The notes under the pieces: model-generated | Seen by the model: the letters and a program-made list of their open reading frames with translations, nothing else | Databases searched by the model: none | What the model was told of the DNA's origin: nothing | Program-made: the position numbers and the translations under genes | DNA from: Polytrichum commune | Taxonomy: Eukaryota; Streptophyta; Polytrichopsida; Polytrichales; Polytrichaceae | DNA: 64,000 nt | Direction: 5' to 3' | Assembly (NCBI GenBank): GCA_950295325.1 | Contig: OX485804.1 | Coordinates: forward strand, 51,214,001 to 51,278,000 | Part shown: one piece after another, positions 6,601 to 42,477 of the stretch | Numbering within the stretch: the stretch's first letter is position 1 | Layout of the letters: every line of letters begins with the position of its first letter

Positions 6601-7300
6601 ATTGAAGTATGTTGTTTGTCATCTTTGGTGAGTGGCTCGGTATATTTGTAATAGGTTTCGCATTGGGCCAGGGTTGGCTTCAATATCTCCATATTTAGCA
6701 TAAAAAAATAGTTGGAAACAAAACATGTTTAATTGTTTTTGGTTGTGGGTTTTATTAGTGTATTTTTATTGCAGTTGGAGTTTGGTTTACTTTGGATGAG
6801 AAGAGACTTGGTATTGGTGGGGTGTGTCGTTCGTGTATATATGTGTATTATTGTTATATTTGATCATTTCGTTATATTTGGTCTTGTGGTATGTTAATAT
6901 TTTTCTAATATCGGTTTTTTTAGTAATGGTTATGATAATGAATACTTCTATTAAGGTGGTGGTATTTATAAACATCATTTTATTTTGTTTATAGGTTTTT
7001 TTAATTTACATTTTTTGGTGCGAGAGTATCGTGGTGCAAGTTCAGGTAAGTTTAACGCTATAAAGTTGTCTTTATCGATATCGAGCATATCCATGGATTC
7101 AAGGGTTGTTATTATTTTGCTAAGGGTTTATCTTAGGGTGGTCATTTTATTTTTGAGGATTTTGGTTGGTTTGTCTGTTCTATATGTGGCAAAGTTCTTG
7201 ATTTGCCTTGTAAGGCATATTTCCATTGTTTGTATTTTGTTACAAATAATTGTCATCTCTTTGCCAACAACTTCCTCTATTATTATTATTTTTTAAATTG
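3670..7300 (-). mobile_element. LINE (non-LTR retrotransposon) remnant with endonuclease and RNase H
   Basis: Read on the minus strand. An AP-endonuclease N-terminus lies at 6027-5821 (WNAFSLNT then IIIQETKL, the usual start and catalytic-Glu segment of LINE endonucleases), continuing in decayed frames to about 5300. An RNase H domain runs from about 5125 (YYTDGSF, first catalytic Asp) to about 4690 (GNE, stop, ADALAKW). A C-terminal segment continues at 4614-4402 and, in pieces, to about 3670. Upstream, 7300-6030 holds short fragments that may be ORF1. Only about 200 bases separate endonuclease and RNase H homology, so the reverse transcriptase core is missing; the gap coincides with a poly-G run. 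Many in-frame stops make this a fossil. The RNase H assignment is firm from motifs; ORF1 is a guess. Confidence 0.75.
5200..5220. repeat. Poly-G tract
   Basis: Sixteen G in a row, one A, then four G, at the point where the reverse transcriptase domain of the LINE should be. Could mark a deletion junction or an assembly-sensitive homopolymer. Confidence 0.9.
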
Positions 7301-7972
7301 AGATTGTTGGATGGGATGTTTCCTATTGCTTCCATTGTGTTGGCTAAAGTCATGTTAATGTCATTAAAACCTAGCCTTGTAAGTTCGTCGACCAAGGGTT
7401 TGGATATACCATCCACATTCTTAATGTGGAAGACAAATTTAACAAATTTATTTTATATTTTATAAATTTTTATAGACCGCAACATTCAAACATTGAATAT
7501 TTCATACATTTGTGAGTTTGCCTTAGATACCAGTTTTTAAATAAATATTTAATACCATTATTTCTCCCATGCATTTTCAAATTTTTATTTTGAGGGTTTT
7601 TCTTCGTTTCAAGGGCATATTTGATGGATTTGTCATAGATTATCACATTGTTTTGTTCCTTAACTTTGATGAAATGATTATACCAAGAAATGAAGTATTG
7701 GACAAAATCACCAAGAATTTGGATGAGATGAAAATTTTACTTGGTGAAGAAATTAGTGACCCAATAGCTATAATGTACACGCACGGAGATAAATAATCTT
7801 ACTTCTATATCCATATTAGAAAAACTCAAGAAATAATTCTTTCCATTATGGCTTGAATTTATGGCAAATCCATAGTAGAACCTTTTCAATTTTATATCTG
7901 AGGGTATTTGGATGTGATGGAATTTTTATTTTCCTATGTCATTCTTATTTGGCCATATTTTTGTGGCACATA
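7301..7972. other. AT-rich intergenic stretch
   Basis: No gene recognised. The 75-residue frame at 7569-7796 has no recognisable domain. This sequence is the left flank of the TIR element that follows. Confidence 0.3.
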
Positions 7973-8918
7973 TACCGTACGTTAAGGGCAGCTTCGGCGC
8001 TCTCTTGCCGAATAATTATTAAAAGTGAAAAAATAGTGTTCGGCACCTAAAAATAGTATATTCATATTTTTGGCAATTTTCTCTTTTAATTTTTAAAATT
8101 CAGCTTAAATTCAATTTTCATTTTCTATTTAAGCTTATATCTTGTACATCTCCCTTGCATTGAATGACAAGTAAGATGTGAGTGAAGAGTAGAGAATGCT
8201 CTGTGCTTTATGCAAGTAGAGTGGAGTTGTGTTCAACAATGCATATGGGATATGTAAACTTTGAGGTGAAGCACCGAGTTAGACTTCATTTTTATAACTC
8301 GCATAACATTTGCATAGAGTCTTCAAATGACATAAAATTTGTTGGAGGTGAAAGATTACTTGATTTGTAAACATTTCTTAGACCAACAAAATTCCAAAAA
8401 AATTGATCTTCTATGCACAAATGAGCTCCGAAAAACTGTTATGAACGCATTTTAATTTTTTGATCTTCACACGGCTGCAATGTTTTGTCCATATCTTTTG
8501 CATAAAGACTTATTTTGACACAAAACTTATTGGAGGTGGAAGAAGGATTGATTTCTCAACTTTTGTTAGTTGGACAAAATTCTATAAAACTTCATCTTCT
8601 ATGCTCAATTGGACTCCAAAAATTTGTGTACAACACATTTGAAAAGCCTCACCTAGAGTCTTGCTACTTCTTAACCCATATTCTTTGTGGACTAATGTAA
8701 GTGAGCTTGATTACAAAAGGAGCACCTTCTCTCTTTCAATATTCACATATGCTTCCACTATAAGTAAAACTCTAGTGAGAAGTAAAAATTTCTTACTTTT
8801 CGGCAATTTTGAAAAATAATTAATTTTATATTCGGCAAAAAATGCCAATAATATTCCAAAATTTTCGGCGTCTATTTTTAGAATTATTTTGTGCCGAAGC
8901 TGCCCTTAACGTATGGTA
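7973..8918. mobile_element. Non-autonomous TIR DNA transposon (MITE-like, about 0.94 kb)
   Basis: Ends are inverted repeats of 24 bases with one mismatch: left CCGTACGTTAAGGGCAGCTT then CGGC, right its inverse with CCATACG. Each end is flanked by TA (7973-7974 and 8917-8918), fitting a TA target duplication and a body of 7975-8916; the TA could instead belong to the TIR. No transposase is encoded. The interior has two diverged direct copies of a roughly 200-base unit (about 8230-8440 and 8460-8650), each with a CTTATTGGAGGTGGAAG-type core. TA duplication suggests a Tc1/mariner-like superfamily, unproven. Confidence 0.8.
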
Positions 8919-9236: not shown

Positions 9237-12200
9237 TTTGCCATACCTCCGGAACGTTCGGGACTGAGACCACCCACCTCCTTTTTGTACCCTTAACGCA
9301 TCTCTCAATGTCGTCATTGCAGAAAAAGAAGTCTTGAGGGTCCAATCTCTTCTTCCGATAGTTATCCATGAGGCCTGAGTAGGTAGGTGCAGCGGTGCTC
9401 TTCCCGTCTTGTACAATCCGAGCGACGCACTTCTTCTTGGTGATTGCTTGTAGAGCAAAGCAAGCCTTCGCAGATGTCTTAGGCAGCCGTGCGATGTGCC
9501 ACTGGGCAGGGTTGCATAATGTCTCCTCAATCGCGGTGACGTGGTGCCGATCCACCCGCTGTGGAGCGTCGTGTGTTGGAAATTGCGGTTGGTTTTCATC
9601 TGCAGTTGTGGGAGAATATGGAGTTGTGGGAGAATCTGGAGTTGTCACAGGAGGTGGAGAATCGTTCAGTCGGGCAGATCTGGTTTGGACGCGTGGTCGG
9701 GATATACTGATCTTGGCCTGTGAGATTCACGTTCGTCACCGAAAGCAGTATCCGGTTTACGCTTCAGAGAAACAAATACCTCTTCCCCTTCGAGGTGGGG
9801 AGTCCTGGTGCACCACTCGTCACCGCCAGGCATCTTCAAGATGGCTTCATGCAGCGGTTTCGAGATTCATGTTTTTACGGCAGACCTCTGAGCACGCCTC
9901 AACTTCAATTCCTCCTTCGACGGTCCAGTTCCAGGGTTCTCTCCCTTTAGGAATTGGGAATATGCTGAGCACTGCATGAAAGCACGCACGAAGTCATCGA
10001 TTGTTGCCACATAAAGGTCACTGCCCCGATCGCCAGATTGTTGCTTCCACTTATTGTGGATAGATTCAGCAAGGTTACAGGATGGCATTTCCGCTAGTTC
10101 AGCTTCACTTAGATCCTGCAATGCCTATACAGTTCGAATTAGAATAATGGCGGAATCAATGTAGTTGAAGCATAAAGTGGGAACTATATAGGAAATATAG
10201 AGGGAAGCATACACTTACCAACTCCATAAATCCACCCCATTGGCGGTAACGGAAATGCCAGAAGGCCAGCCAGAGCTCCAGTCGAGGTAGACCTTGTTCA
10301 GTTGCTGCCCCGGATGACATCCACCATGCCCGAATTGCCAAATACTTTGTCTCGGCCTCCGCCATCGATTTTGCATTCTTGTATTGCTAGCATAGTATTC
10401 GATGCTGATGTTGCAGGTCTTGACGGATATCGGCCTTGGTATGTTTCTCCAAGGACTGCGTCCAATGGAAAAGACAAGTCCTCTCTCTATCCACCATCTT
10501 CTCAGACACATCTTCACTTCCGTAAATGATTCGAACAGCATTCCAGTTGGCTTGGGCACTGTCGGCCATGAAACCTTTAAAATTGACTTTGTCCACTCCA
10601 TGTTGAGCCATGAGAGCGTTCAGGTTCTTCCATACGACTGACTGGGCTGCAACATCTTCAGACTGCATGTCGCATACTGCGATGGTCATGACACGGCAAT
10701 ATGTGGAATCGTACACATGGCAAGCCATTATCATTCACGACCTGACACGTTTGACATGGTCAAACATTATCCAGGAGTTCTCCAAGTCACCACCGGGTTG
10801 CATTCGTTTGACAAGGTCGACTCCGCTGTCCGGTCCAACTTCAGACATCTTGAAGACAAAGACCTTGTCCATGTCCGCTCCTTGCCCTGGAAACCTATTC
10901 TGTTGCACGAACCTCCAATTGCTAGCACCGCGTAACTTGGTAATACTGTCCATGACTCCAAAGCGACGCATAGTCCTGAACATGGTGACTGCGTTACGAA
11001 TGTTGGGCGAGGTGAGGTGCTTACACCGATCGAAAATAACTTGCAGCTCGTCCAGCTCCAAGATCTTTTGTGGGTCACCTTCTTTAGCAAGGAGGAGTGG
11101 GCCCAGTACTTCCTTTGCAGTTTCAAGCACAATAGCGGAGCGAGTGGCTGATGGGGTGCGTTCGACTTGATCCCCAATCAAGGTGTTTGTCAAATCGATG
11201 AAGTCCCGATGATCACCTGACTTGACGGGATGGTCGTGAGATCCCAAGTGCACACAAGCCCTCGTCATGTGAGGTGTCGTGGTAACATAGTAGATCTTGG
11301 CAGTGCAAACAACAACACAAGTGGGAGGGACGTTACATGATTTGCAAACAACGGTCGAACCAGTTGGAGGCTTGGAACCCACTTCAAACAATTTCTCAAA
11401 TAATCCTTCCCACTCTGTTTCATTCACTTTGGAAATCCTATGGTCTCGCTGAAGATACTCACAGGCAGGATTGTCGCAACGGAGGTGGCCCAAACAAGAA
11501 GATGCACGAAACAAAAGCTTCAGATCATTTTGAATATTGGATGTAATTGTGCGAGTCCAAGCATGGCCATCGTACCTTCTATCCATTCCACGAAGCAGCT
11601 TGGCCTTTGTATTATGGCCATGGTCACCTAAAGGTGGAAACTCGAAGATAACGTCCCCATCGTAACGAGGAGGAAGGTAATCAACCTGCTGGAGTCTGAT
11701 CGCATCAAAGTTAATTCGAGATAACACACTTTTGGACCGCTTACGAGCTCCAAGGCGCATCAATGAATGAATGATACTGACAAGAGGACTTGCCACAACC
11801 TTGGCCTGACCAGGATTAGGAGACGGACTAACAGGAGGAGTTGTTTCCTTGCAAACTACTTATGGAGACAACGAAGCTTGGACTCTGCTCGCTGATTTTA
11901 AGAATTCAACATCGCCGTCGGAATCATCACTCAACTCATAAATTGTATTTAGACCGGGCTCAATTTTGACCTTAGACAGCACCGGTCTCTCAATGCTAAT
12001 AGTGGAAGACTCCTTGGGTGTTAGAAGTTCAGTGGAACACTCAAACATAGACTCGGAGAATCCATATACACGATATTTTCCAGGCTTCAACAACCAGAAC
12101 GTACCGACGTCATTATCTACTCTAGTCTGACGAACTGCATGTGAAACTAGACCGGTATGATCGTCAAAAACTTCTTCTTCGACAAAGATAGTGACCTCAC

Positions 12201-13637: not shown

Positions 13638-14559
13638 ATGAACACTAGGTCGAGAACGAGAGCAGATCGAGAGATTAGGAGGACTATTGAAAAACAGAGG
13701 CGTATTGAGAGAATGCAAAGGTTAGAATCAAGAGGGAGCTTAGGAACGCCGTACAACTTGCGGACAACAATGGGTAGACGAGGGGTTAATTCTTCTAGGG
13801 GCACAGGTAGAGGTTCCAAAGGGGAAAAAAACGTTTGATGTTTCAGAGGTAGCTCCAGTAGTATTATTTCCTGTATCGGAGGAAGACAACGAAGTTGACA
13901 AAGGGGGCAGTGAGGTGATGTTTATCTGCAATCATAATGAAATTTTTATATGTGCAATCATAATGTTAAGTTCTATCACGGATAGTTGGAACAGATGAGA
14001 CTCTCTAAATTCCCTTGTTGTGTGGGCAATGGTATCGGCTCCTTTATGTTGTGTTTTATGTTTGGTGGGGGATTGTGAATTGGGTTTGGTTTGGGTATCT
14101 GGAACAGGGAATGACGCAGACACAGGTTCAACCTGAGGCAACCTCCAGTGCCTCAACATCAGATCAAAGTGAGGAGCAGGTTTGTAAAGATTGTAATCAA
14201 TTGGTGACTTGAATGGTTTTGGGTTTAGGGTAAGGGGTCTTTCAAATGCTAACACTGTATAAGGCCAAATTCATAGCTAATGAGCACCGGACATATACAC
14301 TTAACAGATCCTTGGCGAATTCGATCAAGGCGCTGATAAAGGTGATCTTCGCGAAGCAAGAATGGACAATGAAGAACAGCAATTCGGGGAAGAGGTACGT
14401 TGTCCCACACAAAAACACCCTGAATTTTATTTTTTTGCATAGTGTTCGGAGATCCAAGATTGTGAACTGAAATAAGGTAGACACCTATACCTGCCGAGGG
14501 AGACATTTCTGGTGAGGGGGAGGGTTGACGGTTGAGGGTGAAGGTGAGGGTTTTGTGTC

Positions 14560-16440
14560 GTTCTTGGAGTTCTTGAAATCTGATGTGAGGTCTAGATATG
14601 GACGTATTAAGGTCAAACTGATGTGAGGTTAGATATGTGGGTTACAAGTGTTAGGTTTTCTAAGGTTAGTTAGCTATGTTGGGTATTAGGGTAATCTGAT
14701 GTAAGCGTAGAAATTTTGAAATTCCAGGGCCGAGTTTCAGTGTCTCGGTGCCGAGACACAATTTCTGGTTTTCAAACTGTAAACCCTACAATCATATTTA
14801 ATATGGAAATCTAGATTTACTTTGTATAAGGGTACTCTGATATGAGACTACACATGTGTGTTTGCAGTGAAATCTGATGTGAGGTCTAGATATGCTAGTA
14901 TTAAGGTCAAACTGATGTGAGGTTAGATATGTGGGTTACAAGTGCAATCTGATGTGAGGTCTAGATATGCTAGTATTAAGGTCAAACCGATGTGAGGTTA
15001 GTTTGCAATTGTGGGTACAAGGCTAATCTGATTTTAGCTTAGAAAATTCTGAAATTCCAGGGCCGAGTTTGAGTGTCTCGGTCACGAGACACATTTTCTG
15101 GTATTCAAACTATAAACCCTACAATGATATTTGATATGGAAATCTAGATTTACTTTGTATAAGGGTACTTTGATATGAGACTACACACGTGTGTTTGAAG
15201 TGAAATCTGATGTGAGGTCTAGATATGCTAGTATTAAGGTCAAACTGATGTGAGGTTAGATATGTGGGTTACAAGTGCAATCTGATATGAGGTTAGTTTG
15301 GACTTGTGGGTATACGAGTAATGTGATTTAATTTTCGAAAATTCTGAAATTCCAGGGCCGAGTTTGAGTGTCTCGGTGCCGAGACACAATTTTTGGTATT
15401 CAAACTGTAAACCCTACAATGATATTTGATATGGAAATCTAGATTTATTTGGTATAAGGGTACTCTGATTTGACACCAACCATGTGTGTTTGAAGTGCAA
15501 TCTAATGTTAGGTCTAGATATGCAAGTATTAAGGTCAAATTGATGTGAGGTTAGATATGTGGGTTACAAGTGCAATCTGATATGAGGTTAGTTTGGACTT
15601 GTGGGTATAAGGGTGATCTGATGTAAGCTTAGAAAATTTTCAAATTCCAACGCCGAGTTTGAGTGTCTCGGTCCCGAGACACATTTTCTGGTATTCAAAC
15701 TGTAAACCCTACAATGATATTTGATATGGAAATCTAGATTTATTTGGTATAAGGGTACTCTGATTTGACACCAAACATGTGTGTTTGAAGTGCAATCTAA
15801 TGTTAGGTCTAGATATGCTAGTTTTAAGGTCAAACTGATGTGAGGTTAGATATGTGGGTTACAAGTGCAATCTGATATGAGGTTACTTTGGACTTGTGGG
15901 TATACGGGTAATGTGATTTAATTTTCAAAATTTTTGAAATTCCAGGGCCAAATTTGAGTGTCTCGGTCCCGAGACACATTTTCTGGTTTTCAAACTCTAC
16001 TACCTACAATCATAGTAGATATTGATATCTAGATATGCTTGTTATAAGTGTACTCTGATATGATGTTAGAAATGTTTGTTAGAAGTGTAATCTGATCTAA
16101 GGTTTGATATCTGTAAGGATAGGTAGGTTTGAAATTGAATTTTAGAGTTGATTTCTAGTTTCTCGGTCCCGAGAGACTATTTCAGACTATCAAACTCTTC
16201 CACCTCACTATGACTTTAGGGGCTATAAGTGTAATATGATATAAGTGTAACCTAATATGAGTGTAATCTTATATAAGTGTAACCTGATATAAGTGTAATT
16301 TGATATATTGTAAATTTGCAATGTGAGCTAAGAGGGTGATCCGATGTAAGGATCACTATTTCATGAGTTGAATATTTGTGCCTAGTACTAGTGTCTCGGT
16401 CCCGAGACATGTCTTTTGATGGTCAAACAATATCACATAC
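14560..16440. repeat. Tandem repeat array in intron 4, about 290-bp units with inverted-repeat core
   Basis: Units are built from short modules (TGATGTGAGGTTAGATATGT, GATATGCTAGTATTAAGGTC, GGTATAAGGGTACTCTGATA). Each carries GTGTCTCGG-NN-CCGAGACAC, a 9-base inverted repeat with a 2-base spacer, usually followed by ATTTTCTGGT and TTCAAACT. Copies of the palindrome sit near 14741, 15073, 15369, 15663, 15959, 16161 (shortened) and 16391. At 16200-16310 the array degenerates to roughly 20-base TATAAGTGTAATYTGA units. The array fills most of intron 4 (14395-16505). Confidence 0.9.
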
Positions 16441-18499
16441 ACTTATAACTGATGGCAGCTGAGGTCATGTTCTCTCCTTGATTAACTAGTACATATATTT
16501 TGCAGGTAGAGAACAACGCAATGGAGGATGTTCCTGCTCTTTCTCTGTTTTCTCTAGACTATTCTGAAGAGGGTCAGGATGAGGATGAAGAGGGGCTTGG
16601 AGATAGAGATCCATATGAAGGGGATGAAGATGATATCAGGACCCGACATAAACTTAATTCTGTTGCCACGATTTCTCGACTGAGAGTCCAACCCCTGAGT
16701 TCCTCAAGGTTCCCTATTCCCTTGTGCAGAATGTTGGCCATGCCTATGGTGAGGCCAACTCTCCCAAGTGATCTTGTTAAATTGGAGCAGGAGTTTGTGC
16801 ATGGGTATAGAGAGGGTGCCTCGGTATTTTATGTGACAATAACAAATGAAGAAGGACAAACACATGAGGTTACTGAGGCTGATAAGGCATCGTGGGGTCC
16901 TATTTGGAGTGCCAAAAATGAACAATTCAACTCCTTTCTTCTGTCCGTTCCAGAGTTAGTCGGTTTTACGAATTTGATGTTCTTTGTTTGTGACGGGAAC
17001 CATAGGCGGCAGGCTTGGTTGAACCATATTGAACGACTTCACAAAACAGAAGAGTCCTGGCATTTTTTGGTGGATAGCATCCTCCTTGACACCAAGGAAA
17101 AAATTGGTATTGTTATGCAAGTTATGCATAATATCAACAAGTAAGTTTTCTAAGTCCATTTTTTGAGGTTTTCATCTATGTACATATATTATGTTGTTCT
17201 TGTCTTTAATATATGATTGTTACTTGTAGACATACAGAAGACTCTCACGTGAAGACAAACACAGTTCACACTCTATTTAGGGTGCAGAAGTATGGACTTA
17301 TGCCGCTCGAACAGTACCAAGACATTTTGACTCCCTCTGACATTAAAAGGTGCAAGAAATCTCAAACTTCAAAGAAGACATGGTATTCATTAAATCTACA
17401 TGTATTCACGAGCTTCATCTTCCAGGTATGATGTGATGTTGATGCTTGATGATGTGATTACTCTTATATCTAATACCTTTCGACATTTGGTACTTATAAT
17501 TGATGTTTGAATGTTTTTGTTTCTTTATGTGCTTTCATAACACCTTTTGTCGCAGTTGTTTGATTACAAACTAACTATGGTAATCCCTTTCCAGCACGAA
17601 CTAGCACTTGCTGCAGATAAAGGCGTTCGTCAACTTCTTGAGCAAACGGATGGAGAGGTGTCTGCTGTTGAAAAAGCAGCCGCCATGAAGGTCGCTGCTT
17701 CAAAGAAAGCCGAGGCACTTCATAAGAAAATGTCAAAACTAGTTTGTGTGGCAAACCCAGACTTGACAGATGGATGGCTTCGGGAGGTATGTCCACTACT
17801 TTAAAACCCATTCTACATTTTTCAAGTAATTCATTAATCTCCATGATCTTAATATATTGCTCTATGGGTCACAGATTGCGCGTCACTATACTCTTAACTC
17901 AATTGCACCCGAGCTCAACTTAGAGAAATTGCAGTTGATCGCTACTGCAAAAGCATCACCCGCTTGTAAAATCAAATGGTTGGAATATTTCAATTCCTCT
18001 TCATCAACACGTGAGGCTCGCAAACTGCCAACCAAGCCCACCAATGAGGACAAATTGCAGGCATTCCTAGCCAAGGCATGTTTTTGGGAAGGAGTGAGTA
18101 CATAATCCCCTATGTACCCTTTAGTTCGGTGTTACTTGATTTGATCCCTTACATTAATTGGTCTTTCTTTTGGTTTCACGGTTATTTCAATATATGAATC
18201 GATGTTGCTCAAATTCTTGTTCATATTCACTCTCTGTATATACAGATATCCGATCAGGCTTCCATTATATTTGAAGACACTTTGCGCCAAGACAGACTTG
18301 CTATCAACTTTGCACTACCCAGCGAGCCCTTGACCAATTGGTTGCATACATCGAGGACTGTAGAATGAAATTATGGGACAACGCGTTTCCCACATTCTTC
18401 CGAGGGCAGGAGGCCTTTAACAAAACTCACGAATTTGAGGGATTTAACGGGACAAACTTGATTGTCCGAAGAGTTATCTTTCGGTGAGTTCTCTCCTTT

Positions 18500-20000
18500 C
18501 ATACTACAGTTCTATATGTGTGTTATAAGTGTACTCTCATATGATGTTAGTATGCACTTTGAGGTATTAGGGTAATCTGATATGAGGTTAGAAATTTGTG
18601 TTATATGTGAAATCTGGTGTGTGCTCTACATTTGGTTGTATTAAGGGTTATATGTGAAATCTGATATGAGATTATATATGGTTGATATAAGTTTAATCTC
18701 ATATAAGGTTAGTTAGCAATGTTTGATATCTACAGGTACTTCTTATAAGTGTACTCTGATATGAGGCTAGATATGTGTGTTATAAGTGCATTCTGATGTG
18801 ATTTCTAGATATGCTTGTATTAAGGTCAATCCGATATGAGGTTAGATTTGTGTGTTATAAGTTTAATATGATGTGAGGGTAATCTGATATAAGCTTAGTT
18901 AGTGATATCTGATATAAGCTTAGTTAGTGACATTAGTTAGGGCCTAGTTTCATATAAGCCTAGAAATCTCTGAAATTCCAGGGCCTGGTTTGAGTGTCTC
19001 GGTCCCGAGACACATTTTCTGGTCTTCAAACTCTAAACCCTACAATGATATTTGATATTGAAATCTAGATTTACTTGGTATAAGGGTACTCTGATATGAG
19101 GGTAGAGATGTGTGTTTGCAGTGAAATATGATGTGATGTCTAGATATTCAAGTAGTAAGGTCAAACTGATGTGAGGTTAGATATGTGGGTTACAAGTGCA
19201 ATCTGATATGAGGTTAGTTTGCAATTGTGGGTATAAGGGTAATCTGATTTAAGCTTAGACATTTCTGATTTTCCAGGGCCGAGTTTGAGTCTCTCGGTCC
19301 CGAGACACATTTTCTGGTATTCAAACTCTACTACCTATAATCATAGTAGATATGTGTGTTATAAGTGCATTCTGATGTGATTTCTAGATATGCTTGTATT
19401 AAGGTCAATCCGATATGAGGTTAGATTTGTGTGTTATAAGTGTAATATGATGTGAGGGTAATCTGATATAAGCTTAGTTAGTGACATCTGATATAAGCTT
19501 AGTTAGGGTAGTCTGGTTTAAGCTTGGTTAGTGCAATATGAGATTAGCTTAGGTAATGAAATCTGATACAATCTTAGTTAGGGGAGTCTGATATAACCTT
19601 AGTTAGGGTAACCTGATATAAGCTTAGTTAGGGCCTAGTTTCATATAAGCCTAGAAATCTCTGAAATTCCAGGGCCTAGTTTGAGTGTCTCGGTCCCGAG
19701 ACACATTTTCTGGTATTCAAACTCTACTCCCTACAAACATGGTTGCTATTGATATCTACCTATACTTGGTATAAGTGTACTCTGATATGAGGCTAGATAT
19801 GTGTGTTATAAGTGCATTTTGATGTGATTTCTAGATATGCTTGTATTAAGGTCAATCCGATATGAGGTTAGATTTGTGTGTTATAAGTGTAATATGATGC
19901 GAGGGTAATCTGATATAAGCTTAGTTAGTGTTATATGATATAAGCTTAGTTAGTGACATCTGATTTGGCATAGTGTTTTGGTTTTTAATATGGCAGCTAT
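18500..20000. repeat. Same repeat family in intron 9
   Basis: Intron 18484-20044 is filled with the same modules. Inverted-repeat cores lie near 18993, 19291 (one arm CTCTCGG) and 19685. Additional TAAGCTTAGTTAGTGAC short repeats occur at 18890-18940 and 19450-19640. The exons on both sides are free of the repeat. Confidence 0.88.
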
Positions 20001-21124
20001 GTCAATTGCAAGGTATTTAATGATGAGCTGTGTCTTTCCCGCAGGTATTTCAAGTACGAGCTCCTTGCAAAAGGAACAATAACAAAAGAAGATCTCCCTA
20101 TATTCCTCTCAGCATGGCTTGACAGGTCTAACTCCACGTGCATGTTCTCAGCAAATCAACAGCGTACATGGTCAACCTCACATCTCACTGGAGGTGGTTG
20201 GTACCTTGACTGTGCTCCTAGTTTCACTCCTTCCTTTGAAACTGAACTTAGGAAGTCAAGGGAGGCAGTTGGAGAATCTGGTGTTGAGATGATTGACTTA
20301 CAGGGCATAGAAGACGAGCATGAGAGGGCAAAGGCCCTATCCCGACGTCTAGAAGAGGATAGGAAGAAGGCGCTTAGAGTAAAGGAAGCAGAGGAGAAAG
20401 CCGCACAGAAAGAGATGGAAAAACTTCAAAAATCATTGGAGAAGACTACCATGAAGGGGAAAAAGAAGATGAACCCCCATTCTGAGCTAGAAGGTAAGAG
20501 TCCCGTTGCTCCAAGCTATGAATCTGGTTCTCATGCTCCAACATTTTCTAGAGGAACAAAACGCGATTCCTCCTATGAGCAGTTGAGTCAAATTCCTATT
20601 TTGACATCGGGGGAGGAGCTCGATATCCATATTCAAGAACTCATTCTCAACGCCTCAATGGAGGACGTTCTTGGCGGTGACACGGAGGAATTCACCCCTT
20701 CCTACAACGAGTTGAAAAGATTCATGCTCAAGGTACTGCTCTTCCTTAATTTTGTCATAACATGTTTGCATTTAAATTTATGCATTTCAATGTGGTCCAC
20801 ATTGAACATTCAGTAGGTACTACTTTTCATATTTCAGTAATCGGCCATAATTTTTTTCGGGACCGAATCATGGATCTGACGAGTAAGGCTGGTAGGGTAG
20901 AGTTTATGCGGGACCCAAACACCATGTGGAGTGCGAGCTGAGCCCTCAATGGACTCGGCAATTTGTTTTGTGCTTGCAATCGGCCATTTGTTTTGTTGTA
21001 CCATTTTGTTTGTGGAAATTAGGAATTGAAATATGAATGGTGAGGTGTCATGTTAATTTTTGAACTTTTTTAGTCGGAACACTGTTTAAGTGAAATCCCC
21101 GCCCTCTCTGAATTCTACCTTCTC

Positions 21125-22040
21125 TAAAATATGATGTGAGGTCTAGATATGCAAGTATTAAGGTCAAACTGATGTGAGGTTAGATATGTGGGTTACAAGT
21201 GCAATCTGATATGAGGTTAGTTTGCAATTTTGGGTATTGGGGTAATATGAGGCAAGTTTAGAAATTTCTGATTTTCCAGGGCCGAGTTTGAGTGTCTCGG
21301 TCCCGAGACACATTTTCTGGTATTCAAACTGTAAACCCTACAATGATATTTGATATTGAAATCTAGATTTACTTGGTATAAGGGTACTCTGATATGAGAC
21401 TACACATGTGTGTTTGAAGTGAAATCTGATGTGAGGTCTAGATATGCTAGTATTAAGGTCAAACTGATGTGAGGTTAGTTTGCAATTGTGGGTATAAGGG
21501 TAATCTGATTTAAGCTTAGACATTTCTGATTTTCCAAGGCCGAGTTTGAGTGTCTCGGTCCCGAGACACATTTTCTGGTATTCAAACTCTACTTCCTACA
21601 ATCATAGTAGATATTGATATCTAGATATGCTTGTTATAAGTGTACTCTGATATGATGTTAGAAATGTTTGTTAGAAGTGTAATCTGATCTAAGGTTAGAT
21701 ATATGTGTTGTAAGGTCTATCTGAACTGGGGTTGAATATGGGTGATATTACTGTAATCTGATGGGAGATTAGATATCTGGGCTATATCTGTTATCTGATA
21801 TCGGGTTAGATATGTGTGTGATATGAGGTTAGATATGTGTGTTATAAGTACAATCTGATGTGAGGTTATATTCGCATGTTATAAGGTCAATCTGATATGA
21901 GGTTGAATATGGGTGTCATAAAGGTACTTTGATCTGTGGTTAGATATGTGGGTAACAAGTGTAACCTGATAAGAGGTTAGATTTGTGTATTATATAAGGT
22001 TAGTAATGAGTATAGATATGTTTGATATAAGGGCTAGAAC
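21125..22040. repeat. Same repeat family in intron 10
   Basis: Inverted-repeat cores near 21292 and 21549, then diverged TGATATGAGGTTAGATATGT modules to about 22040, just before the methyltransferase exons. The first 390 bases of the intron (20733-21124) are unrelated single-copy sequence. Confidence 0.88.
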
Positions 22041-23588
22041 TAGGCAATGTACAAAGCAAGGAGGATTATTTTAACACCAAACCTGGTTGTCCTTTGATTG
22101 TGCAGCACTCAAAAGACAAAACCCGGCACTACAAGGGTTCTCCGGATGACCATCCCTGTTTGGACTTGATTCTTGCAGATATACCGGAAGGTCTTCCTGT
22201 TCCTGGCATATCAAACCCACCGTCGTCCATTCCCGCTTGGAATCAAGAATCGAAAGAGTGGTTACAACCACTCTTTGACTTTGCCGACGAACATCTGCAC
22301 GACGACGGGGCAATTATTTTGTTTCACCCTTTTCGCATGAGTACGAAGTCCAATATACTTGGATATTGCAAATCGTATGGTTTTGCAATTCGGAAAGAGT
22401 GGTGGGGAATGAACCGCCTTCATCTTACATCTCCAATAAATCCAGCATCAACTGTAAGATAAAGCTTATGTCTTCTTTCTGATCACCGCATTCAGTTTCA
22501 ATTTCATCCTTGAGGTAGTTCTGAGTGTAGACCCACCTAACTATTATACTCACGCAGTTCTGTTGTTCACTTTGTAAAGTAATATTGATCTTTATGTCTG
22601 GTACATTATAGACCATGAGGTTCAATATTTCATTGGCGGTCAGGAGCGTGCCGGGGTCACCTGCATCGAAGTTTTCATTTCGCCATGTCCCTGAATTGGA
22701 TCCTTATGGGGTGGATGTTGCACGGGATGATATTCTCCAGAACTTGGTCTCTCGTGAGGACCAGCTAACTAATGGATCCACACCATGGCGAGGGCCTCGT
22801 GAAAAGTCCGTGCTTCTAATGCAAATGTTAATTGAAGCATGTAGCTCCCCATGGGATATTATTCTAGACTGCACGGCAGCGACCGATATGTCTTTGTAAT
22901 CTTGCATTTCAGTTGGTTAATTGTTAATATTGTTTTGTTCTACAAAATTCATAGTGGTTTTTGTACTAAGTTTTTCCAACTTCTTTATTTGCAGGATCTT
23001 CCATTCATGCATGCCGCAATGTGCACCGTCACATTGCGGCATTAGAGGCTGATGTAGATATTTTTGAGGCCGTACTTGCTCCATTGATTATCTCTAGAGC
23101 AGCCTCTGAAGTCACTCTTGAAGACCGTGTCACAAGTGTAGAGGATCCTGAGGGTGAAGATATTCCCGTTGAGAGGATTGTGAAGAGATCTCGGTTTACT
23201 AAGTGAGTATGGTCCACAAATTCTCTTACCAGTGTTATGTTTTTTGCTGTCATTTCTTCTAAAGTTGAGTTATGAACATGGTACCATTGGCATTTGCAGA
23301 TGCGATAAATTGAGCTATCCTATTCACCGGCCTTTTTTTTGTGACCCTAAATTCTATCCCAGCCCTCCAAAGTCTTGGCAACTTCCTACATATGCAAATG
23401 TTATTGCTAATCAACTAGCTGGAGGTTCTTATCAGACTTTTTCATCTAAATATCATCCGGGAAGAGTTTTAGAGTTTTTGGATATAGAAGCTTTAGAATC
23501 AGATGGTCAGGCCTCCTCTGATGCATATATTAGTGATTCTAGAATGTCTTCATCATCACGTGATCACAGTGATTCGGATCTGATGTAA

Positions 23589-25179
23589 TAGCTTCATGTG
23601 AATGTCTGTGTACTATCTAATATACCGGTTTTTCTTCCGTTGGTTTTTCAGTTTGTGCACTCATTCCGCATGAAATTCATTGTATTTGTATTACTTTCGG
23701 AATTTATGGGATTGCATATATAAAATTGCAGATTTAGATTAACTTTTGACTTCGTGTTTTCTGATATTGTTCACTTAATTCCATAATCGGCCTATTAGTT
23801 CATACCCTTCTCTTTGAAATTTAAGGGTTTCCACTATTATTCTATTATCGTTTTCATATATTTTTTCAATGCTTGCTTACGATTTTAGGCGAATGTTGGG
23901 TTGAATAATTCACCATCAACCTCACCATTAATGTCACCTCATGAAATTTGGCATTCAAGTGTCTTGACTAATATCTCGGCATTAGTATGTTCCACAATGA
24001 TATGAAGTGCACACCTATATTACACAATGGTCTACAAGTTGACTAAAGTGTACACCAACGACACTTGACATTGGTATGCTCAAGAATATCTTCCCCTTGC
24101 ATACTTCAACGCGGTCTAACAAACTTTTAGTACATATAGATCCATCTCTAGTTAATTCTACTAGAATAATTCAAGGTCTTTGATCTTGATTAAGGTGTTA
24201 ATTGGGTTTAGACCAATCATTCACATGTTCTACATGATAATTAGTTTCTTTGCTCTCCCCTTTAGTAGGTGTTAGGAAACTTTAATCCCAACCAAGGATC
24301 AAACATTATGGCAATACTATGAGTTGAAGGTGACAAAAAGTTTATTGTTTAATATCGCTTAGGTTTTTAATTATTAAGACATAATTTACTTTAGACTCAT
24401 GATCATAGATATACTCCAAATGAGGTTAGAATATGCAATTTTAATGTCAAAAACTTCCAAGTTCACATAGAATTGTGGTCATTGGATTGGATCATAATTT
24501 TCCCATTTGGCTAGCGACTGAGAACCAAGAAAATTTTTATTTCATGTTTCAAAATTGAAGTTGAGATGCAAAGGTTATAATAAGTCAAAGTGAAGAATTT
24601 AATTTTTTTAAATGATGACTCGAGACCTCCTAGTTGTGTTGAGTGTTAAACCAAGAAGGCTTGTGCTTAAAATATGGACATCATCCTAGGTTTTATGTTC
24701 AACACAATTGCTCTTCTTAAATAACCACCTATATTTGAGTGGTATATAGTAAGGTGTTGTTGTTAGAGGAACATGTTGTAAACACTTCCAACATTTTCAG
24801 TTTCTTTAATATTTTCTTTAAGTTTCTTTCAACATTTTAAGTTTATGCTCATATATATATATACACACACATACAAACGGATGGGTCTTCATGGGCATTA
24901 CGTGTGAGGCCTGCAGCATTGGGGTTTGGAGATTCCCTCACCACAATAGATGGAATCTTACTTGCTAAATTGCTAGAGGTTGTCATGAAATTGTCGTGGT
25001 CAGGTAATATCCTGAACCTCCAAGAAGGTGCAAGCAAATACTATATAGGTTCCTCCACCACGGTTATAGGTTCTTTTTGTCAATAAATTTGTCAATAAAT
25101 ATTTCAAAAGTTAGCTCTACACCACGGCCATAGGGCATGTTTCACCTGACAAAATTTCAATATTCTAGAAAACTTACCA
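23589..25179. other. 3' subterminal region of element 1, non-coding
   Basis: No gene recognised between the methyltransferase stop codon and the right terminal repeat. AT-rich, with an (AT)n(AC)n microsatellite at 24851-24872. In element 2 the corresponding interval is only about 0.3 kb, so extra DNA has been inserted here or element 2 is shortened. Confidence 0.4.
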
Positions 25180-25213
25180 CTCACCGCTCACCGCTCGCAA
25201 AATAGCTTTTCCC
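25180..25213. repeat. Right terminal inverted repeat of element 1
   Basis: Contains ACTCACCGCTCACCGCTCGC followed by AAAATAGC and seven outer bases. Read inward on minus it gives GCTATTTTGCGAGCGGTGAGCGGTGAG, shared with the left end of element 2 (27256-27312) and, with a few C/T differences, its right end (42478-42517). The seven outer bases (GGGAAAA inward) fit the pattern GAGCGAC/GAGGAAT of the element 2 ends. The 10 bases after it, CTACCCGGCC, are the expected target duplication, but no second copy was found in the window. Confidence 0.7.
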
Positions 25214-26299: not shown

Positions 26300-27255
26300 C
26301 TCTAGGACTAAGTTAGATCCTCGCTCCGAAAGATGCATTCTACTTAGCTTTGATGAAGCAGCCAGGGCCTACAGGTGTTACCGACCCTCCACAAGAAATT
26401 TTTTTTGTTTCCAGGGATATCGTCATAGACGAGGACAAATTCTCCACTCCGACACAGACACCGGAGCCTCAACCCACTCCCACACCAGACAATATACCCG
26501 CCCCAACCCGGACAGAAGAATCCCAGGCCCTTCTCGGTCTACAGCCACAATACCTGCCTCCTGACCCACCGATTAACCCACCAAGTCCCTCCCACGTACC
26601 TATTCCCCTCCCCGACTTCCAGCAAGTCACCTCACCGACTGCTACCGTTTCTGACTCTGCTCCACCTATCCCCGAGCAAGTTGCTTCCCCGACTTCCTCC
26701 CCAATTTCGATCAACAATCCACCTCGGCGCTCTGACCGAATTCGACGTTTCCCACGACACCTCTATGATTTCGCCGCTCATGTTGAGCTTGACCCTTCTG
26801 ACTCTGCTCTTGACATGCAATCTGAACACCTTACTTTCCAAGAGGTTCATACTCACCCTCACTGGAAGGCTGCCATGCAAGAAGAAATAGATTCTATACA
26901 CAGCAACAACACTTGGACCTCAGTTGACCTTCCCCCTAACAAGAAAGCTATCTCTTCTCATTGGGTTTACAAGGTGAAGACAGGTAGCAACGGCAGTCTC
27001 CCCCGATACAAAGCTAGATTAGTCGCTCGAGGTTTTGAACAGAAGGATGGCATTGATTTTCTTGACACCTTTGCACCTGTGGTTCGCTGGGAAACTATCC
27101 GAATCCTTGTTGCTATCGCTATCCACCTCAATTGGCCTATCCATCACCTTGACGTCCTCACTGCATTTTTGAATGGCATTTTAAAGGAGGATGTTTACAT
27201 GCACCTGCCCCTAGGCTTCATCCAGCAAGGAGCCGAACATCTGGTGTGCAAACTC
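26294..27255 (+). mobile_element. Ty1/copia retrotransposon 2, 5' half (integrase end to reverse transcriptase)
   Basis: Starts within the integrase C-terminus (HSRTKLDPRSERC, then the ARAYRCY block) and runs in an open frame at 26350-27270 through a Pro-rich linker to the reverse transcriptase start: WKAAMQEEIDSI, SHWVYKVKTG, YKARLVARGFEQK, DTFAPVVRWETIR and HHLDVLTAFLNG (first catalytic Asp). Homology stops after VCKL at 27255, exactly where element 2 is inserted; the frame resumes at 42518. Upstream gag, protease and most of integrase are missing because of the minus-strand LTR-like sequence. Confidence 0.9.
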
Positions 27256-27312
27256 GAGCGACGCTATTTTGCGAGCAGTGAGCAGTAAGCGGTGAGCGGT
27301 GAGCGATAAGTT
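27256..27312. repeat. Left terminal inverted repeat of element 2
   Basis: After GAGCGAC come GCTATTTTGCGAGC and five tandem variants of a 7-mer (AGTGAGC, AGTAAGC, GGTGAGC, GGTGAGC, GATAAG). The 7-base periodicity is shared by the other ends of this family; the copy number of the 7-mer varies between ends. Confidence 0.88.
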
Positions 27313-27964
27313 TTTCTTTTTTTAGTTAAAATAATAGTTTAATGTGCAGGGTATATTAAAAAAATCATTGTTTTGCAAATATATTTCCAATTATAGTAAA
27401 TTTTGGGACCTATACCCGTGGAAAATTCCTCCACAATGATCGTTGCAAAGTTGTTTTTGGGATGTTTTTAGGGTTTAGGGAGTCGAAATCAATATTGACA
27501 AACATTGTGGAGTATTTCTATGCAGCAAAACTAAATTACATTGGCATCTTTTGAGATCCGTGAGATTGAAGATGAATTCAAGGAAAGTGGAGATATCAGA
27601 CACCTAAGGTTTCTAGACTATCAAAAAGAAAATTAAATGAAGCTTCGAGGTCAACAAAAACGTTGATACATCAAATACCTCGAAGTGGCCCTTTTAATCT
27701 CACTAGTTCATGATTAAAACAGAGGCTGCATACATACGTTTCTCTGAGAAGACAATGAACTCAACATCTCTATACAAGATTTTGTATAATGAAGGAAACA
27801 GTAATTGATGAGTATTAAAACTAAACCATTCAAATTCAATACTGTAGCGCCTTTAAAGAGTGACGGTATAAAAATACTGCACTTGGTAGTGGCCCTTTCC
27901 GTCTCACTACCTCAATTTCATTGATGTGATTGAAATGAAATTACAAGAGTACTTCATCCAAAGC
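27313..27964. other. Left subterminal region of element 2
   Basis: Non-coding. Contains two diverged direct copies of a motif with GTGGCCCTTT then TCTCACTA (about 27675 and 27887), roughly 210 bases apart, a possible transposase subterminal site. Confidence 0.35.
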
Positions 27965-30893
27965 CTAAGAGGTTGTCTGGGTCAACAATCCACTCTGAAG
28001 GATTTGCTTGACCTCATTAAAGCTAAAACTAGCAGCATGAATAAAAGTATCAGAATCAGGATCAAGTCCACAAATTATCGTAAACACATAGTATAGGTGC
28101 TTACAATTGGCCCACTGACCGCGCTTTCCAAGTGCCTTGGTTGCCATTTCCTTGAAATTGTGACAAGTGCACGCCGGAAGTTGAGAAATAGTCAAGTGGT
28201 ACTGGTGGATATTGGGAGGAGAACCAGAATCCAAGGTAACAATACAGCCAAGAGCTGGGGCAGGCACCATGCTAATGTTGCGAATGCAAGCTTTTAACGT
28301 GAGAGTAGAGACGCAGTTGTTGGCGTGACGTGTGGAAGGGGCCTTACTCATGCGACGGATATTCTTCCCGGACCTGCGCTTGGGGAACTCATCCGGAGAT
28401 GCCGGAGTAACATACGAAGTCAAGTCCACGTGGGAGAGGTTGTCTCGGAACAATCGTCTTGGAGAGATTTCTTGTCGTTGAGGAAGGCGAAATCCAGCAG
28501 TCTCCAATTGGAGGATCTCCTTGCGGGTAAGGTTTGTCCCCATCTTGACAGGCCAAGTCTCAGGGACTTCAGGCCTTGATATAACCCACTTCCTGGGAGT
28601 TCCTTTAACACACCTTTCAATATCATCGTTACAAAAGAAGAATTGCAAGAGTTCTTGCTTATTCTTTCGGTAATTGGTCATCATCCCGGTGTACGTTGGC
28701 GCAGCGGTACTCTTCCTGTCTTGAACAATACGGGCCACACACTTCTTCTTTGTCATCGCTTGTATAGCAAAGCAAGCCTTTGCAGACGTCTTAGGAAGAC
28801 GTGCGATGTGCCACTTACTTTCGTCACAAGCTGATTCTTGAACTGCTGTAACATGCTGCAAAGGAGCAAGTGGGGTGACATCACTTACTCGAGTCTTGCC
28901 GTTCGATTGCTGCGGCGCAATTGGAGTTGCAAACGTTTCAGGAGATTCTGAATCAGCGGTTGGTGAGGCCGTTTGAGAGTTTTTGATGGAAGACCGCGTT
29001 TGCACTCGGGGACGAGAGATGGAGATCTTGTCAGGTCGGTGAGAGTCAAGTTCCGAACCTGGAGGAAGGTCAGCCTTCCGTTTCAACGATAGGAAGACTT
29101 CTTCACCTTCTAAGTGTGGCGTTCTAGTGAAAACTCTTGTGCTCCGGGCATTCTAGTCATTGCTTCGTGAAGGGACTTGGTGTTGCTGGTAATCTCCGAA
29201 GAACGTTGTGCGGCACGTAACTTCAGCTCTTCCTTGGACGGGCCAGTACCAGCACGATCTCCTTTTAAGTACTGGTAGTACGAGACACATTGCATAAATG
29301 CGCGCACGTAGTCATCAACTGTTGCAACGTATGGATCCTTACCACGGTGGCCGGATTGTTGGAGCCACTTATTGTGCACGGTCTTGGCCAAATTGCAGGA
29401 AGGCATTTCAGCCAACTCAACTTCGTTCAAGTCCTATGGAGAAGGAGTTTAGAAAGAATCGATTAGGAAACATGTAGGAGACGATTGACGATTGCTTTAT
29501 CAATGGATGGGTAGACGTTCAATGAGCGAAGAACTTACCAATTGCATGAAGCCACCCCATTGGCAGTAGCGGAAATGCCAAAAAGCAAGCCAGGAGTCGG
29601 GATATGGCATCCTCAGATGCGGCACCGGATGAAAGCCACCACGCGCGAATGGCAAGGTAGCGCATTTCAGCTTCAGAAATGGTCTTGGCGTTCTTGTATT
29701 GCTTGCAAAGCAATCGGTGCTGATCTTGAAGGTCGAGTCTAATGTAGGCCTTTGTGTGCTTCTCGAGGGACTGAGTCCAGTGAAAGAGGCACGTTCTCTC
29801 CTTGTTTTCCATGGGCATAGATGCATCTCCGTTTCCGTAGACAATACGGATAGCATTCCAATTGGCTTGAGCGCTATCTGCCATAAACCCTTTGAAGTTT
29901 GGTTGAGAAACGTTGTGGCGAGCCATAATAGCGTTGAGGTTTTTCTAAACCACAATTTGAGCAGCGGTATCCTCGGACTGCATGTCACAGACGGCAATGG
30001 TCATTACTCGACAAAACGTGGCATCATAAACATGGCACGCCATTGTAGTCCAACTTTGCACACGCTTAACATGGTCAAACATGAGCCAAGCGTTTTCGAG
30101 GTCTCCACCGGCTTGCATCCGTTTCACGAGGTCGACTCCACTACCCGGTCCTACCTCAAACATTTGGAACACAAAGACCTTGTCAGTTTCCGCTCCTTGG
30201 CCTGGAAACTTGTTCTCCTGGACATAAGGCCAGTTGCTTGACCCACGAAGTTTGGTGATGCTATCCATAACCCCAAATCTACGGATGTATTTGAAACCCG
30301 ATACAGTATTACGGATGCTAGGCGAAGTAAGGTGCTTACAACGATCAAACAAAGGCAGGAGGTCATCTACAGAGAGGAATTTTGGTTGTGAACCCTCAGG
30401 CGCTAGGAGCATGTCTCCAACTAAGTCTTTGCTAGCTTCCAAAACTAAAGCGGAGTTGGTAGCTGTAGGAGTGCTTTGAATTTGTTCACTCAGGAAGCTG
30501 GTAGTATGCTCAATGGAGTTGCGATAATCACCAGTTTTGACCGGACGGGCATGGATTCCGAAGTGAATACAAGCCCGAGTCATAGATTCTGATCCAACTA
30601 CATAATAAATCCTAGCCAGACACAAGGCAACACAATTCGGCGAAACCTTACAAATGGAACAAACGATGGTTGAATCCTTGGGAGGCACGGTACCACACTC
30701 AAAGGGCAAAGATGAGTTGCCCTCCCACTCCGTTTCATTAATAGGTGTGGTGTGGTGTGCTCGAGTAAGGAACTCACAGTCAACATTATCGCACCGTAAA
30801 TGACCTAAACAGGAAGAGGTACAAAAAGTGAGACCAAAATCGTTAGAGATGTTGGACGTGATAGTTCGGGTCTAGGCATGGCCATCGATAGTA
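27965..30893 (-). pseudogene. MULE-like transposase pseudogene, element 2 copy (core and SWIM domain, N-terminus lost)
   Basis: Minus strand. Homology begins at about 30893 (HA-stop-TRTITSN, Trp codon turned to TAG) and includes SCLGHLRCDN, TRACIHFG, HVYDATFCRVM, FMADSAQANWN and FHWTQSLEKH. An intron at 29434-29538 sits exactly where the sister copy has one. Then AEMPSCNLAKTVHNKW and, in the last frame (29086-27965), KTSAKACFAIQAM, CNDDIERCVKG, and a SWIM zinc finger near 28085-28175 (CTCHNF ... CKHLYYVF, pattern C-x-C-xn-C-x-H). Stop codon at 27965. Lesions: TAG for Trp near 29945 and 30868, and a one-base frameshift near 29130. The N-terminal part present in element 1 is cut at 30893, where satellite-side DNA begins. 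Confidence 0.72.
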
Positions 30894-30949
30894 GGGCGGG
30901 CAGGTGCTAGTGAGAGGGTTAGGCAAGCGGTAACCCTAGAACATATCTA

Positions 30950-31129
30950 GCAGCACCCTAAACATTTCCAAGCTTTTGAGAGGGTGCGCAAGCTGTGGCA
31001 GATGAATCCTGCGCCGACAGCCATGGACACCAGGGAGGTCACAGCGGGCAATCAAAGAGGTAGTACATCGAGACAGCTTGGAGAGTCGTCGTCGACGGAG
31101 GTGCGCAACCTCGAGGGCGACATCGTAGG
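30950..31129 (+). pseudogene. Exon-like fragment of unknown origin
   Basis: An open plus frame reading VRKLWQMNPAPTAMDT then a Ser/Arg-rich stretch and VRNLEGDIV, ending at a good donor (GTAG|GTGAGC at about 31130). It differs in composition from the transposase and lies at its truncation point, so it looks like a captured host exon whose downstream intron is the satellite array. Not recognised; short. Confidence 0.3.
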
Positions 31130-31179
31130 TGAGCCTTGAATCCTGAAACCCTAATAAAACTTTGCGGGTTTCTTCATGC

Positions 31180-37990: not shown

Positions 37991-38028
37991 TAAGTTGCTT
38001 GTAGCTTTCAGGTGCTGAGGGCTGAGGG

Positions 38029-38740
38029 CTCGGGGGGTGCACTGTACTAAACATGTACGAGTATACGTGAGTGCACAGGAGGGGTATTGATTTGGACCTT
38101 GCTGTATTACGTATACATATGGTATACATGTTATAATTTATAGTTACGTACATATATGGAAGGCCTTTAAAAATTATACAATAATTGTACTTGTATGGTA
38201 TTGTTATTATACTACATATCATAAGTTTTCATATTGGATGCGGAGGAAGTTTTGTAATCGTTAGGTGGAGTATAGGGATCCAATTGACTTGATGGACCGT
38301 CCATCAAACGTGGAGATTGGTTTATGTTGATATCAAAAAGGGGCTAACAACAAGTAGACATATGATCTTACTGATCATTTGATGGTAGACTTAGAGACAA
38401 TAATTGCATTGGCTACAATGACATATATTGGTGAATCAAATGTTTATGAGTTACATCCGGGAGATGAAAAACTTTTCAACGACTGTGCTGATGAAAGCTA
38501 GGATATTTTGTTATACATATTATAGGGGTTGATTATTGTTCAAAAGTATATTTGTATATGTTAATGACTATATATGAAAGGATGTTTTTTTGTGTATACA
38601 TATTGTCACTTGTATATTTATTGTTGCAATTGTATGTGTATTACTTCATTTCACAAAAAATAACTTGTATATAGGGGGTTTTTAGAGTATGCAGTGAACG
38701 CACGTGATTCTAGGTTTTAATGAAAGGTGCACCCCCCGAG
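38029..38740. mobile_element. Nested 712-bp TIR element
   Basis: Perfect 14-base inverted ends CTCGGGGGGTGCAC (38029-38042) and GTGCACCCCCCGAG (38727-38740). Both flanks read GCTGAGGGCTGAGGG (38014-38028 and 38741-38755); with an internal 8-base repeat, the duplication may be 8 bp (GCTGAGGG, hAT-like) or longer. The interior is AT-rich and non-coding. It lies in the right edge of the satellite array. Confidence 0.75.
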
Positions 38741-38755
38741 GCTGAGGGCTGAGGG

Positions 38756-42237: not shown

Positions 42238-42477
42238 CAGTGTCGAGCTCTCTATGTAGCAGTGATTGAAGTAATGGCGACCTTCTTGATCATACAAAGT
42301 ATCTTGAGCTCCCAGGAATTGTCACGGATATAGGCCCCTTTAATAAAAATTGTGTTCTACAACTTTCAAGTTTTCAGTGAAAACCGCAGTCATAGAGCTC
42401 AAAAGTTTTCAAATTCTTGCTCTATTCCTGATTATAGGGCTTTATTTTCAATAAAAATTATCTAAAAACTGTAGAAA

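Follow-up and report, generated by a model that had tools for sequence, protein, structure and literature searches.

A moss transposon gene joining a plausibly ParB-like DGNHR domain to a domain apparently derived from a beta-class amino-methyltransferase, with element-specific palindrome arrays

We analysed a stretch of 64,000 nucleotides from the moss Polytrichum commune (contig OX485804.1, hereafter the window), which holds two related transposon copies, A and B. The gene order common to both is a transposase on the minus strand and a divergent ParB-like gene on the plus strand, and in copy A the latter gene also encodes a domain derived from a DNA methyltransferase (MTase). The ParB-like/MTase-derived gene, at 16506-23588, is real, and it belongs to a transposon family whose hosts are most likely mosses; a bacterial contaminant was ruled out by the introns, the moss relatives and the transposon context. 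A first-pass annotation, made from the sequence alone, had pointed to this gene. The features described here beyond it are the lack throughout the family of an aromatic residue in MTase motif IV, a second copy with exact ends, and arrays of palindromes.

Re-reading of the window sequence showed that the copy A gene consists of ten exons that together yield a single protein from an intron-rich gene (Table 1). An AG acceptor precedes every exon and a GT donor is found at eight of the nine internal junctions, and the joined query, counted from the first ATG of exon 16506, comprises 1,089 residues. Copy A was judged to be a pseudogene because exon 18246-18483 contains a frameshift and the GT donor is missing after DCTAAT. 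Reading motif I as DCTAAT-G-SS requires this same junction; in a protein of Ceratodon purpureus (P0152) the sequence is continuous across the position (DCTAATGPSIHACRNVDRHIVALEADADIF / DCTAATGPSIHACRN), which supports the exon junction in copy A. Every motif listed in the first-pass annotation was present (CDGNHRR, LILADIPEG, DDGAIILFHPF, the REKS..L block, DCTAAT and SSIHACRN...ALEAD). Its exon set held for 16506-23588, while its exons 1-4 (13638 to ~14400) are unconfirmed, and a search covering exon 1 found no counterpart of that open reading frame (ORF) elsewhere in the window. The accessory gene of copy B spans 39463-42242. Differences between the ParB-like exons of the two copies amount to 0.50, 0.34 and 0.68 at the three codon positions, as expected for coding sequence.

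Table 1. Features of the two elements in the window (ORF, open reading frame; TIR, terminal inverted repeat; aa, amino acids; bp, base pairs).
Feature	Position	Strand	Evidence and remarks
Copy A transposase	pieces 9241-9809, 10390-10734, 10738-11859	-	divergent from ParB-MTase gene; in-frame stop 10735-10737
Array A, 12 sites of GTGTCTCGGTCCCGAGACAC	14740-21569		within and just before confirmed exons of copy A gene
Copy A ParB-like exon	16506-17140	+	open frame, AG/GT sites; CDGNHRRQAW, DGNHR at 16992-17006
Copy A next exon	17230-17425	+	frame, splice sites; copy B counterpart 40095-40247, 29% over 51 aa
Copy A two middle exons	17595-17786, 17875-18093	+	frames, splice sites; copy B counterpart 40653-40829, 36% over 59 aa
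Copy A middle exon with internal frameshift (pseudogene mark)	18246-18483	+	
Copy A large exon, GWYLDC motif and charged tail	20045-20732	+	copy B counterpart 41207-41413, 35% over 71 aa
MTase-derived domain, part 1	22106-22453	+	DLILADIPEG (DIPEG 22178-22192), then DDGAIILFHPF
MTase-derived domain, part 2	22612-22885	+	REKS..LM..LI; REKSVLLMQMLIEA...DIILDCTAAT; no GT donor at end
MTase-derived domain, part 3	22995-23202	+	SSIHACRNVHRHIAALEADVDIF, SSIHACRN...ALEAD; rest of motif I region
Copy A C-terminal exon to stop codon	23300-23588	+	weak copy B counterpart 42051-42242, E 0.002
Element A right-end TIR	25164-25213	-	5 mismatches in 24 against element B left end
Element B, TIR transposon, 15,262 bp	27256-42517		exact ends, target duplication, copia interrupted
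Copy B transposase gene, three ORFs	27968-30871	-	at least one in-frame stop, 29945-29947
Array B, 24 sites of GGGTGCCTGAGGCACCC	31458-37160		between the two divergent genes; tandem repeats
Copy B ParB-like exon (WDGNHR)	39463-39999	+	63/162 residues identical to copy A (39%), E 4e-40
Copy B large exon	41168-41860	+	similarity to copy A exon 20045-20732
Copy B C-terminal remnant	42051-42242	+	E 0.002 to copy A C-terminal exon

Profile searches and alignments were used to place the C-terminal domain. The Pfam family N6_N4_Mtase matched exon 22612-22885 alone with an E of 0.058 and, with the neighbouring exons joined, with an E of 1.4e-4 (22.4 bits), and the joined exons also matched PHROG 3008, a DNA methyltransferase, at 1.3e-5; both matches cover the C-terminal third. 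Residues 91-163 of P0152, in the C-terminal part of a protein that begins after motif IV, matched PDB entries 5HFJ/5HEK at 9e-7, which we take to be M1.HpyAVI and which the match table names DpnA. Six bacterial and phage MTase neighbourhoods were retrieved and five were aligned (L002 was left out), and hhalign against these five MTases gave Prob 95.2 and an E of 2.6e-8, with DIPE falling on DLPY, while cross-domain control pairs gave Prob 0.2. Of the 21 plasmid records that matched the domain, four align to 80% or more of the query with 23% identity and E values of 2e-3 to 3e-2. Beta-class amino-methyltransferases have motif IV before motif I, and alignment to the bacterial and phage enzymes gave this same order, IV then I, in copy A. 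The N6_N4_Mtase scores of 22.4 and 25.2 bits are both under the curated cut-off of 26.7, which weighs against membership of the MTase family; three of the four relatives scanned (P0123, P0190 and P0173) had no Pfam match at E ≤ 1, and a PDB search with a profile of the fragmentary MTase family alignment returned no methyltransferase and only chance matches (E of at least 0.77). Taken together, the alignments and profile matches support derivation of the domain from a beta-class amino-methyltransferase, and the earlier proposal that such a domain shares one gene with the DGNHR domain was borne out by the Pfam, PHROG, PDB and hhalign results.

The usual catalytic motif IV is (D/N/S)PP(Y/F/W). 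Counts for this motif were taken from the 55 of 78 aligned rows that have a residue at the position, and these rows read D-x-P-E-G, with D in 53, P in 53, E in 50 and G in 51 of the 55, and the second residue is mostly I, M, L or Q. No row had an aromatic residue at the fourth position (0/55), and D-x-P-E-G shares its alignment column with the DLPYG, DLPY and DPPY of bacterial and phage MTases. The occurrence of D-x-P-E-G across 55 rows indicates that the change in motif IV is family-wide and is not confined to the broken copy A. Motif I is also unusual, with DCTAATG in place of the DPFAGSG, DNCMGSG or DTFGGSG of the bacterial and phage rows, and the motif I region keeps a D and an E. The lack of the catalytic aromatic throughout the family warns that a domain annotated as a methylase need not write N6-methyladenine (6mA) or N4-methylcytosine (4mC).

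A search with the aligned ParB-like exons of the two copies retrieved 728 database proteins at E ≤ 0.01, from contigs of several sources and with up to 97% identity to copy A among those listed (at least 120), and one of the same type with the joined MTase exons retrieved 77, including P0123 and P0152 of Ceratodon purpureus. None of the 7997 candidates scored against the full-length protein reached E ≤ 0.001, and viral contigs held no relatives when the ParB-like alignment, a bacterial ParB or the MTase alignment served as the query. The best tblastn matches of the ParB-like exon had an E of 4 in phages and of 2 in plasmids. A diverged relative of the MTase exons, P0195 (MDIPEGLPVPSV...), was found on a contig of 635,247 bp and possibly represents another lineage with the family. 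The ParB-like domain carried D-G-N-H-R in 121 of the 122 rows of its alignment, namely the 120 of the 728 relatives that were listed and the two exons of the window, and its R probably corresponds to the pocket arginine of ParB/Srx proteins. An alignment of 35 of these rows was used for the profile, Pfam and PHROG tests. PHROG 1033, 'ParB-like partition protein', was the most frequent weak match (12 of 35 members, best E 0.082), and the Pfam family DUF1015 matched three of the 35 (best E 0.061). The motif and the published algal analogues make the ParB label plausible, with the fold not demonstrated.

Element B is delimited exactly. It is flanked by a 10-bp target duplication, GTGCAAACTC, at 27246-27255 and 42518-42527, which has no further occurrence on the plus strand of the window, and its ends are imperfect inverted repeats with GTGAGC-type 7-mers, identical at 29 of 35 positions as counted by eye. 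The element splits a copia reverse transcriptase, such that the flanking ORFs match positions 1-119 and 113-242 of RVT_2; the copia element is thus the insertion target, and a retrotransposon as the carrier was rejected. For element A, a target duplication was searched for and none was found. Its left part, with the far end of its transposase, is lost near 9241, where similarity to the other ORF of copy B breaks off. The two transposases are 62% identical over 273 residues, and the in-frame stops at 10735-10737 (A) and 29945-29947 (B) each correspond to a W in the opposite copy.

Mutator-like elements (MULEs) have target duplications of 8-11 bp and TIRs, and we describe the carrier as MULE-like because of the length of its duplication and its terminal repeats. 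A SWIM-like CxC..CxH pattern was seen in the transposase by eye only. The two copy B transposase pieces that were scanned matched no Pfam family at E ≤ 10, and a firm MULE classification was rejected for want of such a match. The MULE-like transposon of the first-pass annotation is retained as regards its TIR family and 10-bp duplication, with transposase pieces that are unmatched in Pfam. To the left of element A, the region 4001-8643 shows a strong GC skew of 0.33-0.39 at 4001-8000 and a 154-bp direct repeat at 8302/8490.

Each element contains an array of a palindrome of its own. A search with a 16-base pattern allowing up to two mismatches found 12 matches to palindrome A (nine exact, two with one mismatch and one with two) against 0.06 expected in shuffled sequence, and found none in the window outside element A. 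Seven of the sites lie at 14742-16408, three at 18996-19702 and two at 21294-21567, and the latter five fall in two confirmed introns. Array B has 24 exact cores TGCCTGAGGCA, 23 of them with arms of at least 8. When a single repeat unit was subjected to dinucleotide shuffling, a palindrome this long arose in 15 of 2000 shuffles for A and 39 of 2000 for B. Palindrome A is the most conserved stretch of its repeat, with values of 0.977 for the arms and 0.879 for the near flank over 12 copies, and 0.989 and 0.935 over 10 copies. In two diverged sites, 16160 and 16393, the arms match at 16 and 17 of their 18 bases and the flanks at 46 and 48 of 116, counts that are biased by their discovery via the palindrome. 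Rfam gave 0 matches. A minisatellite at 52069-52994 (49-bp unit, ~19 copies) is distinct from both palindrome repeats, and long palindromes were also seen within the MTase coding exons, at 22253-22276 and 23011-23042 (AAAGAGTGGTTACAACCACTCTTT; the second with arms of 13).

Our tentative interpretation, to which we give somewhat less than an even chance, is that the gene encodes a self-binding accessory protein resembling VANC of the Arabidopsis VANDAL transposons, which are Mutator-like, and that its methylase fold has altered or lost its chemistry. Through its ParB-like domain the protein would attach to its own element's palindromes, possibly with nucleation at many sites in the way that ParB nucleates on parS, and would so coat or mark the element. 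Protein and palindrome would diverge together, so that the action of an element would be confined to its own kind. The likeliest benefit would be sequence-specific protection from host silencing, the role of VANC for VANDAL elements. The methylase fold may keep cofactor binding, given the D and E in the motif I region, with amino-methylation chemistry probably altered or lost. A stronger form of this proposal, which we regard as possible but doubtful, is a parS-like moss system in which the ParB-like protein with its repurposed methylase fold nucleates on arrays of its own palindrome, covers the element and either shields its chromatin or marks it anew. Protein and palindrome would co-evolve between families, and the system would be a second, independent invention of VANC-type anti-silencing, assembled from bacterial components for partition and modification.

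The comparison with VANC draws on several parallels. According to passages of PMC5735166 and PMC10398659, the introns of VANC and the region upstream of the transposase hold tandem repeats in which short motifs occur many times, and the VANDAL transposase is much more conserved than VANC. Likewise, the ParB-like exon is 39% identical between copies A and B as compared with 62% for the transposase, paralleling the faster-evolving VANC, and the moss elements, of which two were compared, share with VANDAL the pairing of a transposase with a faster-evolving second protein and the element-specific motif arrays in non-coding parts. The same passages describe VANC as having DUF1985/DUF287 and the motif YAGTATTAY, and anti-silencing is shown for VANC whereas it is inferred here. 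DUF1985 was not among the Pfam matches at E ≤ 10 of the eight copy A gene pieces scanned.

A number of observations weigh against a self-binding, VANC-like protein. As regards the binding domain, the Pfam scan of the 35 members matched six families with ParBc not among them, a PDB search with the ParB-like profile gave no match, and hhalign against 80 bacterial ParB sequences gave Prob 0.4 as compared with 0.2 for controls, from a moss alignment that is shallow (Neff 2.0). The ParB-like domain of the first-pass annotation thus keeps its motif and the weak PHROG matches, without support from the Pfam ParBc, PDB and hhalign searches. As regards the palindromes, these were seen first and tested afterwards. 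With 10 copies the contrast in conservation is small, windows shifted by 3-5 columns giving 0.975 against 0.98, and this set leaves out the sites 16160 and 16393, which were recovered via the palindrome itself and are biased to conservation. The copies in array B are near-identical, so that conservation there is uninformative. Seven sites of array A precede exon 16506, the first confirmed exon, and are intronic only if exons 1-4 are real. The palindromes could instead be used by the transposase or have arisen as by-products when the repeats grew, and the co-divergence of protein and palindrome is a comparison of two elements, that is, two points. The passages of PMC10398659 and PMC5735166 on the VANC motif do not call it a palindrome, and VANC has other domains. 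Finally, both copies in the window carry disabling changes, and no counterparts of the MTase exons were found at E ≤ 0.01 between or around the copy B exons.

Since there is no significant profile match to ParB, the DGNHR domain might be an unrelated fold with a similar motif, which would make the gene a transposon MTase with another targeting domain; this would be compatible with any of the functional readings. We consider it rather unlikely, as D-G-N-H-R is retained in all but one of the aligned rows, the ParB-like PHROG is the most frequent weak match, the shallowness of the moss alignment limits the profile test, and passages of PMC12477816 report algal proteins with the same two domains.

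Those passages also bear on the question of enzymatic activity. They propose for the algal ParB-MTase proteins an active self-modification, and a moss protein of this kind would bind its own element and write N6-methyladenine or N4-methylcytosine there. The MTase domain is recognisable along its length and is under strong constraint in the family, which speaks for such an activity. However, the absence of the motif IV aromatic from all 55 rows, with E in 50 of them, and the unusual DCTAATG of motif I make self-modification unlikely in our view.

The divergent gene pair, with arrays beside or inside the genes, could also be read as a transposition apparatus. The ParB-like protein would then be a cofactor that helps the transposase to find, pair or transport DNA, the palindromes would be assembly sites, and the MTase-like part would be structural. 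In favour of this reading, no MTase exons were detected in copy B, an element with two defined ends and an exact duplication of its target. Yet the arrays lie far from the element ends, where assembly sites would be expected, and the MTase exons of B may have been lost after insertion, its transposase itself carrying a stop; a cofactor role thus appears quite unlikely. That the gene is a passive passenger, a captured gene that multiplied along with its element but has no role of its own, with palindromes that are chance satellite features, agrees with the disabling changes in both copies but is highly improbable, as 728 and 77 relatives keep the motifs, divergence between the copies is coding-like, and the chance of both palindromes is ~0.0075 x 0.02 if they are independent, a figure to be read with caution because the palindromes had been seen before the test.

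We now return to a self-binding, VANC-like protein and to how it stands among known systems. The first-pass annotation knew of no description of the combination, and this is refuted by ParB-MTase accessory genes in transposons of brown, red and green algae (PMC12477816). In the passages of that paper, the Ectocarpus element Sola1-1_Ec32 has a gene for a ParB-like and N4/N6 MTase protein on the strand opposite the transposase, and similar genes are cited from green and red algae. As in copy A, a single gene encodes both domains and lies on the other strand from the transposase within a large DNA transposon, with 1,104 residues there and 1,089 here; the likeness is one of described architecture, and copy B has no detected MTase exons. 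The algal carrier is Sola1, whereas the moss carrier is a TIR element with a 10-bp duplication. The passages of PMC12477816 mention neither an altered motif IV nor palindromes, and 'palindrom' is absent from its text.

Related proteins have been described elsewhere. Bacterial ParB-methylase fusions such as Bacillus cereus Bce_0392, and phage ParB/Srx domains, are treated in passages of PMC5512222, which note a conserved pocket arginine; the fusions have the same two domain types, whereas profile comparison of the moss domain with canonical ParB detected no match. The bdelloid N4CMT and a Marchantia enzyme are amino-methyltransferases of bacterial origin linked to eukaryotic 4mC; N4CMT has a chromodomain and the Marchantia enzyme no added domain, and in these passages of PMC8885841, which lacks the term 'ParB', they are not transposon genes. 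The DNA methyltransferases captured by retrotransposons in dinoflagellates and charophytes (PMC5890265) are also transposon-borne, but they are of the C5-cytosine class and have a retrotransposon carrier.

Among open-licence papers we found no such gene described from a land plant; no search was made on palindromes or on the motif IV variant. The land plant host, the MULE-like carrier, the D-x-P-E-G motif IV and the element-specific palindrome arrays are, as far as visible, apparently new. If our reading is right, plant transposons have taken over bacterial modules for partition and modification and directed them at themselves, and the arrays are ready candidate binding sites through which the role of transposon-borne ParB-MTase proteins would become testable at the bench. 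At the far right of the window, ORFs at 61581-63116 resemble fragments of a WD40-repeat protein, for example PRP19.

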